Assembly (NCBI RefSeq): GCF_000004825.1
Contig: NW_008805075.1
Location: forward strand, 497,788 to 561,787
Length of the DNA: 64,000 nucleotides
Reading direction: 5' to 3'
Origin: Heterostelium album PN500
Lineage: Eukaryota; Evosea; Eumycetozoa; Acytosteliales; Acytosteliaceae
Shown here one piece after another: positions 9,813 to 57,727 of the stretch. Below the pieces are notes generated by a model. The model ran no database searches, was not told the DNA's origin, and saw only the letters and a program-made list of their open reading frames with translations. The translations under genes and the position numbers were made by a program. Each line of letters opens with the position of its first letter. Position 1 is the stretch's first letter.

Positions 9813-11236
9813 ATGATCCAGACTACAAGTATTAATAATAGTGATAAAGCCAAGAGAGTAAACCAAAACGACAGACCTATAAACAAAGCCAAACTCGATG
9901 GAACATCCAAAAGGATTAATCCAGGCAAGGACCCACCACTTGCAACAACCAAACCCGTTGGCAAGACCCACCACTTGCAACAACCAAACCCGTTGGCAAG
10001 GACCCACCACTTGCAGCAACCAAACCCGTTGGCAAGGATCCACCACCAATACCAACAAACAAACAACCATCACTAACATACAAACTTACTGGAACATCCA
10101 AAAGAATTGATCCTGGCAAGGACCCACCACCTACAACAAACAAACCCGTTGGCAAGGATCCACCGCCAACACAATTAATAATAGCGTCACACAACATCAA
10201 ATTCTTTGGAACTGATAGTAAATTTAGAAAAATTAAACCTTTTATAGATCAGTATAAAGAACAAAATCTTTCTATCTTGTGCGTTCAAGAATTGTGTGCC
10301 CCATTAAAAGATAATGTGTATGTTACTGAAATAAAACATTTTAAAATTGGTATTAATATATTAATTTCTCACCTTAAGATTGAAGAACCATAAGTCTACG
10401 GAATTTGGAGCCAGATTCTATACTGAAATGAAAGAGATTGGATTCGAAGCATTTTATCCAGACTATAAGACTGGTCGAAAAGGATCTGGAAAGCACTACC
10501 ATAACAATAGTAAGTGTGAATACATTATATTTTTAATTTACCATTTCTAATTAATATGTTGATATAGAAACCAGCTCCGAATATCCATTGATTTTCTTCA
10601 AAACCAGAGACTGTGAGTTTCTTGGTGGAGAGTATATCGGATCAACCACTAAGGAAACTCAACAATTTGATAGAGTTCCTTATCTTTTCAAGATAAGATC
10701 GAAACTGACCCAAAGGGTGTATTTTATTATTAATGTACATTTGTCAACAAATGAAAAAAGAGAGAGAGAGAGTTCAATGAGATTAAAAATTTTTGTGACC
10801 AACCAGAGTACAAGTAAGATTTTGTTCAACCGTAATAGATGAAAATGACTAATATTATTCTTTTAGATCACGATGTATTATTATAGGAGACACAAACATA
10901 TCTGCTAAAAAGGAGTATGGCTCTGTCAAAACTATCTTAGCAGATCATTTTTCTCTCAATGACAAATGCGAGCCTACCAACCAATCATTAAAAAAGAGTA
11001 AGGAATTTGGTGTATCAATCAAATTATTTCCTAACCATATTTATCATTTATTAGTACCAAAACCATATGATCATATCTTCATTCCATGGTCAATGAAAGG
11101 AGAATTTGGAGACCTTCAAATTGAGAAATGTTCTGACAATCTGGACAAAATATCGTGGGTGAAGACAGATCATCTGATGATTTCTACGTCAATATTGGAT
11201 ACAGAGGAGTTCAGTAATAAAGAGTTGGAATTTTAA
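9813..11236 (+). pseudogene. EEP-superfamily nuclease/phosphatase, frame-broken
   Basis: From ATG 9813 the frame reads MIQTTSINNSDKAKRV and enters a Pro/Thr repeat (GKDPPLATTKPV). It then leads to an endonuclease/exonuclease/phosphatase domain: ASHNIKFFGTD, ILCVQELCA (catalytic Glu), VHLSTN, IIGDTN (GDxN) and KTDHLMIS (terminal DH). Exons are about 9813-10317, 10379-10509, 10568-10812 and 10867-11236, with good splice sites. Two frame breaks are visible. One G is missing in a repeat unit near 9967 (AAGACCC where sister units have AAGGACCC). A GA-run at about 10756-10768 is out of phase by two relative to the FNEIKNFCDQPEYK frame that follows. All catalytic motifs survive, so decay is recent or the breaks are sequence errors in repeats. 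The substrate is unknown. Confidence 0.75.
9925..10163 (+). repeat. 36-base GKDPP minisatellite
   Basis: Imperfect tandem and interspersed units of about 36 bases, each beginning GGCAAGGACCCACCA or GGCAAGGATCCACC. They encode GKDPPLATTKPV-like segments in front of the EEP domain. About six units can be recognised, with a unique stretch (PTNKQPSLTYKLTGTSKRI) inserted. Long reverse-strand open frames here are shadows of the repeat. Confidence 0.85.
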
Positions 11237-14155: not shown

Positions 14156-14563
14156 CTACCTATAACAACAGCTACAACAACGCAACCAACAGTACCAACA
14201 GTCATACCAATAACAAAACTTCCACCAACACTACCAACAACTGCCAACAACACAACTAACCGTCAGACCAATAACAAAACTTCCACAAACACTACCAACA
14301 ACAGTGCCAACAACAAAACTTCCACCAAATGTAGCAACAGTCATACCAATAAAAAAACTTACCTACAACAACAACCAACAGTTTTTCCAAGATATATCAC
14401 AAAGCTTTTCCAATTTATATTGTGTTTTAAATTGATATCTAAAAAAAATTAATATTTGTTTCTAAAAATTACTATCCCGTACTATTCACTAACAATCTTA
14501 ATATTGATAATTATTATTATTAAAAAAATATTTTGATCCTATTTATTACTTTCACTAGTGGAT

Positions 14564-32575: not shown

Positions 32576-35500
32576 TCAAGATGTAGGCTTGTAACGATTG
32601 ATCAACAAAGATACAACAACCACTGGTAGTGAAGAGAGTAACTCTGAAAGTCCTGCAAATGCTGGTGGAATGGTAAATCCAACTGGGTAGAGAGCACCTG
32701 CAGCAAGTGGAATACCAATAAAGTTGTACAAGAACGACCAACTGAGATTGATTTTGATGACGAGGAATACGAGTCTTGAGAGAGTGATTGCATTGACGAT
32801 ACCTTCGAGGTCGGGTCTCATCAAGACGATGCTGGCGGCTTCGAGTGCAACATCGGTTCCGTTCGATACGGCAATTCCAACGTCTGCTTGGACAAGAGCA
32901 ACGGCATCGTTGACACCGTCACCAATCATAGCAACCTTTCTACGATGCTTGGTTTGGAGCTCCTTGATAGACTCTGCCTTGGAAGCGGGTGTTGCTTCAC
33001 CAAAGAATCCAGTGACACCGAGTTCCTGGGCGATCTTGCTTACTGCTGCAGTGTTGTCACCACTCATGATCCAGATATCCATACCCATACTCTTGAGCTT
33101 CTTTACAATCTTTACTGATTCGTCACGGAGAGTATCCATCATACCGATTACACCAATGATAGAACCGCTCAGTGCAACAATAGTAACTGTTTTACCTTCG
33201 GATTCCAATGTTCTGATTTCACGGAGAATATTCTCGTCGAGTTCGACAAGTTCGTCTTCGTGGATGAATTTCTTGTTTCCAACGAGTACATTGAGACCAT
33301 CAACTGTACAACGGAGACCTCTTCCTGGAACGATCTTTACATCCATTGGATCGGTAAGTTGACACTCGAAGCGAGTTTTGGCAACTTCGACCAGAGTCTT
33401 TCCAATGATGTGTTCACTGCCCATCTCTGCAGAACCGAGGTAGTAGAACAGCTGTTGCTCCGACGCTCCATTGAAGGTAATGTGATTTGTGACATTGAGT
33501 TTACCATTGGTAAGAGTTCCAGTCTTGTCGAATACAACGGTATCGATATTATGGCATTTTTGCATGACTTCTCCACCTTTGAAGATGATACCATTACGTG
33601 CACCGACACCACTTCCAACCATGACAGCAGTGGGTGTGGAAAGAGCAACAGCACAAGGACAGGCAATGACCATTACGGACATGGAGAAGAGCAAACTGAA
33701 TGTAAAGTCACGGGAGGAGATCATCCAAGCAGCAAATACAACGCATGCAATGACGATAATGATTGGAACGAAAATACTGGCAACACGATCGGCTTGCATT
33801 GCGACTGGTGCTTTGTTTGACTGGCATTGTTCAACGAGACGACAGATGTTGGCAATGGTTGAACGAGAGGACTGAGTCGATACTTTCATTTGGAATGCAG
33901 TGGACTGATTGATGGATCCAGAGAATACAAGATCACCTTGTTGTTTGTGGACATTGACAGACTCACCAGTGATAGCCGATTGGTCAAGGAATGCCTCGTA
34001 GTTCTCACATATCGCACCATCGAGAGGTACACGTGAGAATGGGAGAATACGAACAATGTCACCCTTTTGTACAAGACGTACATCAACCACTCTTTCATCT
34101 TTGGCAAGAATTGCGGTCGACGGTTGGAGTGAGATCAGCTTGGTCAATGTATTGGATGCTTGTCCACGTGCCAGTGTCTCTAGGAATCTACCGAGAATGA
34201 TAAGAGTCAAGAGAATGGCACTGGTCTCGAAAAATACAGGGAAGTCTTCCTTCATTACGGCATTGAGGATAATCGAGAGAATCGAATAAAAGTAGGCAAT
34301 CGAGGTGGACAACATTACCAATAGATCCATGTTGGCTCTCTTGTAGAATCGTATCGATTTGTAGGCAGATTGATACATTGGCAAACCAATGTAGAACTGG
34401 ATGGGTGTAGTGAGAACCCAACTGATGAAATGACGGATGGAAAGACCGGTGAACACCTCGTTATCAACACGATTACCATTTGGAATAAAGAAGCTCAGCA
34501 CAACGACTGGAATACAGAGGATGATACTGATAATCAATAGTCTACGGAGCGAATTAATCGAATTGATAGAGTTTTGCTTGGCGTTGTTCATGGTGTTGTC
34601 ATCCACCAATGAGATCTCAACTGGAGATTCGTTGTCGGCTTGGTATGACTGTTGGACTTTGTCATAGAGATCACGTGGTCCGACCGTTTCACTGTCATAG
34701 CTGATCGATAGATAACGAGCTCCACTGGTTTCATTGACAACATCAATAACACCGTCGGTCTCTTTCAATTGATTCATCAAATCAATACTTGGTGCCTTAC
34801 CCTCGGTATTGATACGCAATTGATCGATATCAGCAGGTGGAACTTCAGTTGCATTTACACCAATTGATTTGATAACTTCAATCATTTCACTAAAAATATA
34901 GTAATAAAGTGTTAATATATAATATTAAATTGAAATATGTTTCTATTATTAGCTACTTACTCAACAGATACTAATCCATCATTGTAATCAATGGTTGATT
35001 TCAAAGTATAGAGATTGGTTGAGATTTCAAAGATACCTGGTAATGTCTTGATTTTGGTATCGACATTGTTGAGGCACTCGGAACAACAAGTCAATCCACT
35101 TGGCTCCAAGCTGAGAGTTACTTGCTTTCTCTCACCACCTACTTCCAAGTCGATCATCTCTTCTTCTGGCTCCTCTTGTTTGTAGCCGAAACGAAGACCA
35201 AAGAAATTACCACACTTACGGTAGACGACGGAAGCAGAGAGGGTCTTCTTGGTCTTGGTCGGGATGAGACTGTCTTTACCACCGTAACCGACTTCAATGG
35301 TCAAGCAGCACTTGGTCTCACAACAGCCCTTCTTACAACAGTTACTTGGCGACTCTAAACAGATATCACAGCATTTCTTTTGGACTGTTTTGGCTGGTAC
35401 GACTTTCTTTGCGTGGGAATGTGGCTTCTTGTGGCTGGAGTGGTCGTGTGGCTCAGAACAAGTTGCAGCTTGTTCCTTCTTTGGTGGACAACAACCCTTT

Positions 35501-36846
35501 TTACAATCTTCTCCTGGCTTCTCGACAGTGGAGGTAGTAGTAATAACAACGGTTGGAATGGCCATAGGGTCAGCATTATTCTTGGGTGGACAACAACCTT
35601 TCTTGCAATCTTCCTTCTTTGGAACGGTTTGGGTGGCTTCAGGAGCAGCAACAGTCTCGGTCTTCTTTGATGAACAACATCCTTTTTGACAATTATCTTT
35701 CTTTGGCTCCTCAACAACAGCAGCAACTACAACTGGTTCAACAGTCTCAGTCTTCTTTGAAGAACAACAACCTTTCTTACAGTTGTCTTTCTTTGGCTCC
35801 TCAACAACAGCAGCGACTACAGCTGGTTGCTCAACAACAACACTCTCGGCCTTCTTTGAAGAACAACAACCTTTCTTACAGTTGTCTTTCTTTGGCTCCT
35901 CAACAACAGCAGCAACTACAACTGGTTCAACAGCAACAGTCTCAGCCTTCTTTGAGGAACAACAACCTTTCTTACAGTTGTCCTTCTTTGGCTCCTCAAC
36001 AACAGCAGCAACTACAACCGGTTGCTCAACAACAACACTCTCGGCCTTCTTTGAAGAACAACAACCTTTCTTACAGTTGTCCTTCTTTGGCTCCTCAACA
36101 ACAACGGCAACTACAGCTGGCTCAACAGCTACAGTCTCTGCTTTCTTTGAAGAACAACAACCTTTCTTGCAGTTATCCTTCTTTGGCTGCTGCTCCTCCT
36201 CTGTTTGGACAGTGGTGGCAGGTGTGGTTGGCGACGATTCAGAGGATGAACAACAACCTTTCTTGCAGGCCTGGTTTGTGGCAGGTACCTCATCGGACTT
36301 GGAAGCAGACTCGGTGGAGCAACAACCTTTCTTGCAAGTGGGTGCTTCGTCCTTGTGGGAGTGGAGAGCTACCTCAATTGGAACAGGTTTGACATCGGTA
36401 GAGCAACAACCAGAGGGCTTTGACTCTTGACCGTCAGCGGATTTCTTTTCCTTTGAGCAACATGACTTCTTGGTAGCGGTGGCATCCTCGCTTGGAGAGC
36501 AACAGGAACCAGCGGCAGACGACTTTGGATTACATTGGTCATTCATTGGCTCATCGGACTTGCACAAAGTACTCTCATGTCGTTGATCATCCGATGATGA
36601 AGTACTACAACAACTATCATCATTTGAATCTTCTCCACCAATTAAAGATTGACAACATGATGAAGTTGATGATGATGGTGAATTATTATTATTATTATTA
36701 TGAATAATAGTATTATTTTCTAAATTATGTGAATGTTCATGTTCATGGTTATGTTCATGTCCATGGTGATCGTGATCGTGATTCGAAGATGAAGACGACG
36801 ATGTGGAAGTCGTCGAGGTTAATAAAGGATGATGTGAATCATCCAT
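32576..36846 (-). CDS. P1B-type heavy-metal (copper-like) ATPase with CKKGCC-repeat N-terminus
   Basis: Two exons (36846-34961, 34889-32576) give 1399 residues. The N-terminus has a His/Asp run (NHDHDHHGHEHNHEHEHSH). About 450 residues with eleven C[KQ]KGCC motifs follow, several in near-identical 32-residue repeats (KKDNCKKGCCSSKKAE... VVEEP). Next come HMA-like folds (GLTCCSECLNNVDTKI; CxxC here) and a P1B core: CPC in TM6 (VIACPCAVALSTPTAV), phosphorylation site DKTGTLT, hinge GDGVNDA and YN in TM7. It should export or sequester Cu+ or a similar soft metal across a membrane. Oddities: the conserved SEHP is SEHI, GDGxNDxPAL has Val for Pro, and TM8 shows ELLSS where copper pumps usually have MxxSS. 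Metal specificity is therefore inferred, not shown. Confidence 0.93.
35470..36420 (-). repeat. Coding repeat array for CKKGCC metal-binding motifs
   Basis: The array encodes eleven CKKGCC or CQKGCC motifs. The central six sit in about 96-base near-identical repeats that also encode VVVAAVVEEPKKDN linkers. Long open frames on the plus strand here are shadows of the repeat. Repeat length variation between strains would be expected. Confidence 0.9.
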
Positions 36847-56852: not shown

Positions 56853-57727
56853 ATGGATATACCAAAGACATATGAGGAATTCATTATTTGTGATGAGGTA
56901 ATGAAACAAAGATTATTTGCTGAAATCACAGGTAAACAATTTTCAACGGAGAGTCTAGAGAAAATTTGAATAACTCGTTGTCTGAGTTAGGACGTGTAGA
57001 AACCAATCAAATAATAGGAACAGATTCTGAGAATATTCAACATCTATTTCTAATCATAAAAAAATTAGTAGACACAATAATGCTTCTAAGCAAAAGAGTA
57101 TCTAAAATAAATAATTATGTATTTGGTATATCCATTTTACCTTTACTATTTATTTAATATTTTAATTTATACCATCTGATAAATTGATTTTTATTAGAGT
57201 ATTTAGGATTGTATTCGAACATTGTACGATTTTTGAAATATATATTATTTTCAAAAAAAAACACAGTGAATCCCCCGGCCGTACCTCAGCGTCAACATGT
57301 ACGTGCTGTTGCTCAAACTCTTCAGCCTGCTGTCGTTCAAGTTCTTCAGCCTGCTTTGACTCAATCTCCTCAGCCTGCTTTCCCTCAATCTCCTCAGCCT
57401 ACTTTCGATCAATCTCCTCGGTCTGCTGTCGTTCAGGTCCATCATCCTATTGGTGTCAATGAGCTTTGCCAACTTCCTGCTAACAATGGAAATACGTTAT
57501 ACTCACAACCAATGTATTCTAATCAATTTGATCCAAATACATTTAGATTAGTTGACCACTCTGTTTACACGACCAATAATAGTTTATACATAGCTGGGCA
57601 ACTTCAATCCCAGCACCCTCAATATAATAGCATTGGTACTGTACCAGTCAACAACTCTAATAATACAGCTCTAATTCAACAATCACCAGGTACACCAATC
57701 CTAGCCAGAAAAGACCCAAAAATTTAA
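56853..57727 (+). CDS. Pro/Gln-repeat protein with an apparent frame break, unknown
   Basis: ATG 56853 opens MDIPKTYEEFIICDEVMKQR then LFAEITG, which in frame reaches TGA at 56966-56968. One base out of phase, the text continues as ENLNNSLSELGRVETNQII then IIKKLVDTIMLLSKRVSKIN and splices from 57125 (GTATAT donor) to 57198. The final exon is a hydrophobic stretch followed by five or six 8-9-residue repeats (LQPALTQSPQPAFPQSPQP) and an Asn/Gln-rich tail ending ILARKDPKI. The break near 56935 has no room for a normal intron, so it is a frameshift, a sequence error or an unrecognised first exon. The repeat part has distinctly higher G+C. Family not recognised. Confidence 0.5.
57307..57450 (+). 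repeat. 24-27-base coding repeat (CAGCCTGCT...TCAATCTCCT)
   Basis: Five to six imperfect units encode QPA-(F/V/L)-x-Q-(S/V)-(P/L) on the plus strand. The C/T-rich sense strand stands out from the surroundings. The minus-strand Arg/Leu-rich frame is a shadow. Confidence 0.75.

Follow-up and report, generated by a model that had tools for sequence, protein, structure and literature searches.

Some P1B-type ATPases carry long cysteine-rich tails in addition to heavy-metal-associated (HMA) domains. In Pca1 of Saccharomyces cerevisiae and PcaA of Aspergillus such a tail is N-terminal and is followed by a single HMA domain and the membrane part; cysteines make up 8.2% of the first 400 residues of PcaA, and the N-terminus of Pca1 is cysteine-rich too (PMC5909057, PMC10654040). 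The copper resistance conferred by yeast Pca1 has been ascribed to metal binding by its N-terminal cysteines and not to ATPase activity (PMC5909057). Binding of cadmium by these cysteines hides a hydrophobic degradation signal, and the pump then reaches the plasma membrane (PMC10654040, PMC11050377). CrpA of Aspergillus, Crp1 of Candida and CrpF of Fusarium are P1B copper exporters with N-terminal cysteine motifs beyond HMA domains (PMC7549990, PMC6514546, PMC5447758); CrpA of A. nidulans has two CxxC motifs and three GMxCxxC HMA domains (PMC5447758). In Arabidopsis HMA4, a Zn/Cd pump, the cytosolic extension is C-terminal, with many CC pairs, a histidine stretch and high-capacity chelation (PMC6255694, PMC10654040). 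Its 13 CC pairs include di-Cys motifs that bind ∼11 Zn below 10 nM; when these motifs are changed to di-Ala, the pump complements only partially in planta (PMC6255694). Statements about cited papers refer here to extracts of their text. We describe a predicted P1B ATPase gene of the dictyostelid social amoeba Heterostelium album, lying within a 64,000-nt stretch of the genome (the window; C14:497788-561787). In the N-terminal tail of the encoded protein, C[KQ]KGCC is repeated eleven times in tandem.

Like Pca1 and PcaA, the H. album protein has a long cysteine-rich N-terminal tail with HMA sequence ahead of the membrane part, and it shares a membrane CPC motif with PcaA. Cysteines account for 56 of the 628 residues encoded by its first exon (8.9%, as against the 8.2% of PcaA). 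In place of a single HMA domain it has two such regions, HMA1 and a cysteine-less HMA2. The extracts describing Pca1 and PcaA contain no tandem CKKGCC array, a distinction that holds at the level of those descriptions; nor do CKKGCC repeats figure in the extracts on CrpA, Crp1 and CrpF, or a CKKGCC unit in those on Arabidopsis HMA4. A preliminary description of the locus, made from the sequence, implied that pumps of this family normally carry HMA domains only. This is too strong, given the non-HMA cysteine-rich tails of Pca1, PcaA and plant HMA4. Cysteine-rich P1B tails are thus known, and it is the tandem CKKGCC array that appears to be a new design. The same description allowed that such repeats might already be commonplace among published dictyostelid ATPases. 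Among the matches listed in open-licence literature there is no dictyostelid or KKGCC-bearing pump with an array, which leaves absence from print unproven.

A tandem array of CKKGCC motifs in exon 1

The motifs had been placed at 34961..36846, and both the coordinates and the frame hold: this span is exactly exon 1 of the predicted gene (36846..34961; 628 codons plus 2 nt), as defined by an open reading frame from ATG and by splice prediction. All features of the gene lie on the minus strand. The array (35320..36336, residues 171-509) comprises ten CKKGCC and one CQKGCC, starting at residues 171, 194, 226, 258, 291, 323, 356, 386, 414, 448 and 504. Spacings from motif to motif are 23, 32, 32, 33, 32, 33, 30, 28, 34 and 56 residues. 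Most of the cysteines of exon 1 (52 of 56) fall within the first 514 residues, and 20 CC pairs are encoded. In 20,000 composition-matched shuffles, C[KQ]KGCC occurred at most once (mean 0.00025, compared with 11 observed), and CC pairs averaged 4.9 with a maximum of 13.

Units 3-8 form a six-unit core (35620..36183, residues 222-409). Its units measure 84-99 bp (28-33 residues), multiples of three throughout; units 3-7 are near-identical and unit 8 is more diverged. Tandem Repeats Finder (TRF) returned a 99-bp unit in 4.6 copies (90% matches) and a two-unit period of 195 bp in 2.8 copies (91% matches). Because two linker types, AETVAVEP and AESVVVEQP, take turns across units 3-6, in keeping with the 99- and 195-bp periods, unit pairs were probably duplicated together. 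The motif count, the TRF result and the shuffles bear out the eleven tandem motifs first reported, and the TRF periods and unit comparison support the proposal that they arose by repeat expansion. Pooled over units 3-8, the proportions of synonymous (pS) and nonsynonymous (pN) differences are 0.348 and 0.093, and the resulting pN/pS of 0.27 suggests protein-level conservation of the peptide. Exon 1 contains no N and its units differ by synonymous variants of their own, which argues against simple misassembly.

Antisense to the array, at window positions 35568-36392 on the plus strand, runs a 274-residue open frame rich in Gln and Leu. Rather than a gene, it is probably a side effect of the repeats being in frame.

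Gene structure and the remainder of the tail

Exon 1 encodes the entire cysteine-rich tail and most of HMA1. A predicted intron follows (34890..34960; 71 nt, GT-AG, 84.5% A+T), lying inside HMA1, and then exon 2 (32576..34889), which encodes the P1B ATPase body and is supported by splice prediction, profile and PDB matches, and alignment. Splicing restores HMA1, and we treat the two exons as one gene across a GT-AG intron, their join being predicted to give a P1B ATPase of 1,399 residues. Fusion of the repeats to a P1B ATPase, as claimed at the outset, is supported, with the qualification that the membrane part is encoded in exon 2, beyond 34961..36846.

Ahead of the array there is indeed a His-rich run (36727..36786, residues 21-40), as noted earlier, and a Ser/Asp-rich stretch with five CC pairs (36403..36657, residues 64-148). 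A second His patch (35413..35448, residues 467-478) sits between motifs 10 and 11. No metallothionein Pfam match was obtained for the whole protein or for three pieces of the tail, and an NCBIfam scan of exon 1 gave no match. Metallothioneins are small soluble cysteine-rich proteins, whereas this tail belongs to a predicted pump of 1,399 residues.

The HMA region had been called degenerate, and in part it is. HMA2 (34631..34819), which adjoins the membrane part, is HMA-like and without cysteine, and HMA1 scores 20.8 bits against PF00403, below the cut-off of 24.8; yet HMA1 keeps a CxxC, within TCCSEC. The domain is divided between exon 1 (34963..35124, residues 575-628) and exon 2 (34826..34889, from splice prediction and profile). 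Its PDB matches, to ATP7B and CopA, are both weak. PF00403 was not listed for the whole protein in a Pfam scan at E 1. A scan of the host genome for HMA domains gave seven matches, none of them in this gene, where the intron splits HMA1 in the genomic DNA. HMA2 aligns with the second HMA domain of the rice copper pump HMA4, and both lack CxxC.

A P1B body with departures from the copper-pump signature

The catalytic body scored 557 bits against the P1B profile TIGR01525 (cut-off 346) and matched PF00122 and PF00702. It also passed the copper model TIGR01511 (531 bits, cut-off 397) and the cadmium model TIGR01512 (350.2 bits, cut-off 313.5). Among solved structures, the best match to exon 2 is rice copper HMA4 (PDB 8q73/8q75, E 9e-146); the aligned part stops short of an N-terminal tail. 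We compared motifs in an alignment of this pump with two paralogues from its own genome, C27 and C38, and with E. coli CopA and ZntA. The catalytic motifs TGES (residue 936), DKTGT, the phosphorylation site (33515..33529, residues 1083-1087), and GDGVND (residue 1285) are present, as is the CPC of transmembrane helix 6 (TM6; 33653..33661, residues 1039-1041). TM7 reads NLSWSFLYNFIGIP, in agreement with the Nx6YNx4P motif as defined for this helix (PMC5924815), the YN being encoded at 32723..32728 (residues 1350-1351).

TM8 reads PAFAGLSELLSSLPVVVVS and departs from Px6MxxSSx5S. MxxSS is represented by ELLSS, in which Glu-1378 (32642..32644) takes the place of the Met of the copper pumps compared. 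The last Ser comes one residue later than in the motif; in E. coli CopA, Asn occupies the x5 position. The Met is retained in all three copper-type comparators (C27, C38 and E. coli CopA) and also, according to alignments, in rice HMA4, 7si3 and 3j08. In the N-domain, the HP motif found in all four comparators, and kept in rice HMA4, is altered: SEHP is replaced by SEHI, the Pro giving way to Ile and the His being kept. After GDGVND, this pump continues with AVAL and the comparators with (S/A)PA(L/M), giving NDAVA for ND(S/A)PA. Judged by its profile match and its other motifs, the body stays P1B despite HI, and it is copper-type by profile. Because the P1B-1 signature of TM8 fails, we stop short of classing it as an established P1B-1 Cu(I) pump. 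A Glu in TM8 may also be a feature of fungal Pca1-type pumps; a literature search with one such string gave no match.

Relatives and motif sites in the host genome

The H. album genome searched comprises 32,926,113 bases in 39 contigs. At the protein level, exon 1 retrieved only itself at E 0.001 among the best candidates, which alone were scored, with a 100% match over 629 residues. Exon 2 gave 16 matches, of which the strong ones are itself, C27 (42%) and C38 (40%); the remaining 13 are at E 2e-14 or weaker. The C27 and C38 pumps carry CPC, YN and MxxSS, so that the genome holds three pumps with CPC and YN, this one included. AARAARGGNTGYTGY occurs at 32 sites, 10 of them in this gene, compared with 11 for the reversed control, and no array was present at the 10 sites examined among the 22 outside the gene. 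KKGCC-encoding sites at C27 350236, 355960 and 361652 lie ∼5.7 kb apart on one strand and may be duplicates of a single repeat.

Upstream of the C38 pump, an open stretch from ATG (L032:720-1034) encodes 105 residues with 11 Cys and no KKGCC; it contains CSCSCVKCLC, SCC and NCGCESNSCC. From its position and the GTAAGT that follows it, we infer that this stretch is part of the C38 pump mRNA. If it is indeed a pump tail, a plain cysteine-rich tail may have preceded the array.

We also used PF24534 (HMA_PCA1) as a possible marker of the Pca1 clade. It proved unspecific: rice HMA4 scored 20.5 bits and HMA2 of this pump 22.1 (cut-off 24.5), and the equivalent region of C38 gave no match. Functional likeness to the Pca1 tail need not mean kinship with Pca1.

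A possible role as a tethered thiol buffer

We favor, with a probability of roughly one half, the reading that the tail is a pump-tethered, metallothionein-like buffer and sensor of Cu(I) that would both feed and inform the pump. As Cu(I) (or Cd/Zn) builds up in the cytosol, many ions would be taken up by CxxxCC and CC thiolates along the tail, which is presumably disordered, with the flanking Lys residues partly offsetting thiolate charge. Thiol exchange could then hand the ions on to the HMA1 CxxC and next to the CPC of the membrane part, for pumping out of the cytosol. In this way the tail would buffer metal and supply the pump, and its metal load would probably also signal the metal level to the pump. 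Starting from the array, its repeat origin, its constraint at the protein level, the sequence-predicted gene structure and the P1B body, we infer metal binding, transfer, the identity of the ion, location and regulation.

We favor this reading because the motifs and CC pairs lie far above the shuffles, pN/pS is 0.27, the intron restores HMA1, and the body is copper-type with CPC and YN. Pca1 and HMA4 offer precedents as well, which also make the 'metal buffer or delivery domain' of the preliminary description a reasonable suggestion. The context known from Dictyostelium discoideum is a further reason. This amoeba is copper-tolerant and has three Cu-ATPases (PMC3777012, PMC5758549); a chemical assay for metallothionein gave no signal, although its annotation includes one putative metallothionein gene (PMC3777012). 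The H. album genome resembles it in having three pumps with CPC and YN. Dictyostelium copper biology is also treated in PMC5770829, and a study of copper ATPase evolution gives the number of metal-binding domains found so far in Dictyostelium as only two (PMC3308323).

Several observations weigh against a buffer. Within the array, the linkers are conserved along with the CKKGCC motif, and unit 8, compared with the others one by one, shows 13-17 nonsynonymous and 9-12 synonymous changes (counts). Exchange among paralogous units can bias pN/pS, the stretch compared is short, and tandem repeats can expand neutrally. For the final 144 residues encoded by exon 1, AlphaFold2 gave no usable model (mean pLDDT, the predicted local distance difference test score, of 33). 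Given the TM8 Glu and the HI, it is uncertain which ion is transported and even whether the pump is fully active. Some published results point the same way. For Aspergillus PcaA, with its cysteine-rich N-terminus, neither deletion nor expression in yeast changed copper tolerance (PMC10581124). In plant HMA4, the His stretch added no high-affinity binding, function was equal with 11 or 13 di-Cys motifs, and deletion of the di-Cys motifs raised zinc resistance in yeast (PMC6255694). Tolerance due to Amanita AsCRD1 came from transport and not from immobilization (PMC5924815).

The main rival is modeled on yeast Pca1: a degron or trafficking switch that senses metal. Bound metal would mask a degradation or retention signal, and the tail would mainly control how much pump there is or where it resides, with storage incidental. 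The Pca1 precedent, in which cadmium binding controls arrival at the plasma membrane (PMC10654040, PMC11050377), speaks for such a switch, and a VVVAAVV-like hydrophobic stretch in units 3-7 could serve as a repeated signal. Eleven repeats, however, are more than a switch needs, and we regard this as conceivable though on the unlikely side. The array might instead be the product of neutral expansion, a short cysteine-rich tail having grown by slippage or unequal exchange to a copy number with no selected function. Dictyostelid proteins are repeat-rich, the 195-bp period spans two units, and the stretch upstream of C38, with 11 Cys and no KKGCC, raises the prospect that a plain tail without an array exists. 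The indifference of HMA4 to 11 or 13 di-Cys motifs fits here too (PMC6255694). Yet the pooled pN/pS of 0.27 for units 3-8 and the retention of CKKGCC in 10 of the 11 motifs, diverged outer ones included, make neutral expansion an unlikely account.

The tail could also change selectivity, filtering Cd, Zn or some other ion for a pump that, with Glu in TM8, would not be a strict Cu(I) pump. The replacement of a Met kept in C27, C38, E. coli CopA, rice HMA4, 7si3 and 3j08 is in line with this, as are the above-threshold score of the cadmium model (350.2 versus 313.5 bits) and the proposal in a review that terminal domains are possible selectivity filters (PMC10654040). CPC, YN and SS are nevertheless intact and the copper model is ahead of the cadmium model (531 versus 350 bits), and we judge a change of selectivity improbable. 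Finally, CKKGCC might mark sites of lipid attachment (S-acylation or prenylation-like) and not metal sites. A C-terminal KKGCC resembles Rab prenylation tails, and a singleton site in the H. album genome (L024) ends KKKGCC-stop. But prenylation requires a C-terminal position, the motifs here are internal, and His patches and an HMA domain share the same tail; we give lipid attachment very little credence.

If the tail does act as a tethered buffer, its near-identical thiol units are countable, and capacity might be tuned unit by unit, making buffering, sensing and transport separable. A 2023 review asks if the long tails of metal pumps in eukaryotes sense metal, which would make these pumps 'transceptors' (PMC10654040). 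Such a tail could also help explain amoebal copper tolerance in the face of a chemical assay that detected no metallothionein, one putative gene being annotated (PMC3777012). A bolder and rather doubtful extension is that dictyostelids have the tail of an exporter do the work of a soluble metallothionein, with capacity given by repeat number and the transport site retuned through the TM8 Glu. Intron retention would free the tail as a 629-residue cysteine-rich protein, because the frame stops just inside the 71-nt intron.

KKGCC repeats beyond the host genome

A paired KKGCC pattern was found at six loci in genome_contigs and in one stretch in viral_contigs. In the bacterial search (genome_contigs), the first Lys codon was fixed as AAG and the gap as 60-90. 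Five of the six loci have the motif within an open frame of 84-185 residues; at the other (L042) it is confined to frames of ≤23 residues. None of the five open-frame loci found with this pattern encodes a pump. They belong to two Undibacterium and one Burkholderiaceae, all three with AKKGCC repeats, and to two Planctomycetes (KKGCCGG), and the three Burkholderiales proteins have an apparent signal peptide, as judged by eye. Unlike the H. album array, these are small, separate proteins, unfused to a pump, with a pitch of mostly 7-19 residues in Burkholderiales and 25-27 in Planctomycetes. The bacterial repeats apparently reflect convergence on a good thiol unit.

An origin of the array in viruses or plasmids found no support, the following searches having given no pump-linked array. 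The stretch in viral_contigs (L037) has the motif in frames of 14 and 25 residues between stops. A tblastn search of plasmids and phages with an 88-residue piece of the array, run with the low-complexity filter on, gave no match. A related-locus search with exon 1 produced one candidate, unconfirmed; with exon 2 it produced two ATPase relatives at 31% identity, whose entries were left unread.

Two Burkholderiales loci (L039:3706-5326 and L041:165-1857) share a common gene order: an AKKGCC-repeat protein, a related protein and a YHS-domain protein. The AKKGCC-repeat proteins of both are small and apparently secreted. The related protein matched DUF6969 in L039, with a similar protein recognized by eye in L041, and the YHS-domain protein matched PF04945 in both; the trio is possibly a conserved metal-handling set. 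The planctomycete loci (L038:3570-4028, and L043, a 185-residue frame on the minus strand) encode small proteins with CCGGRE...LHDKKGCCGGE-like repeats, and that of L038 had no Pfam match. Within the window itself, further tandem repeats occur at 9924-10060, 14166-14320 and 57304-57435, with units of 36/71, 61 and 24 bp, respectively.

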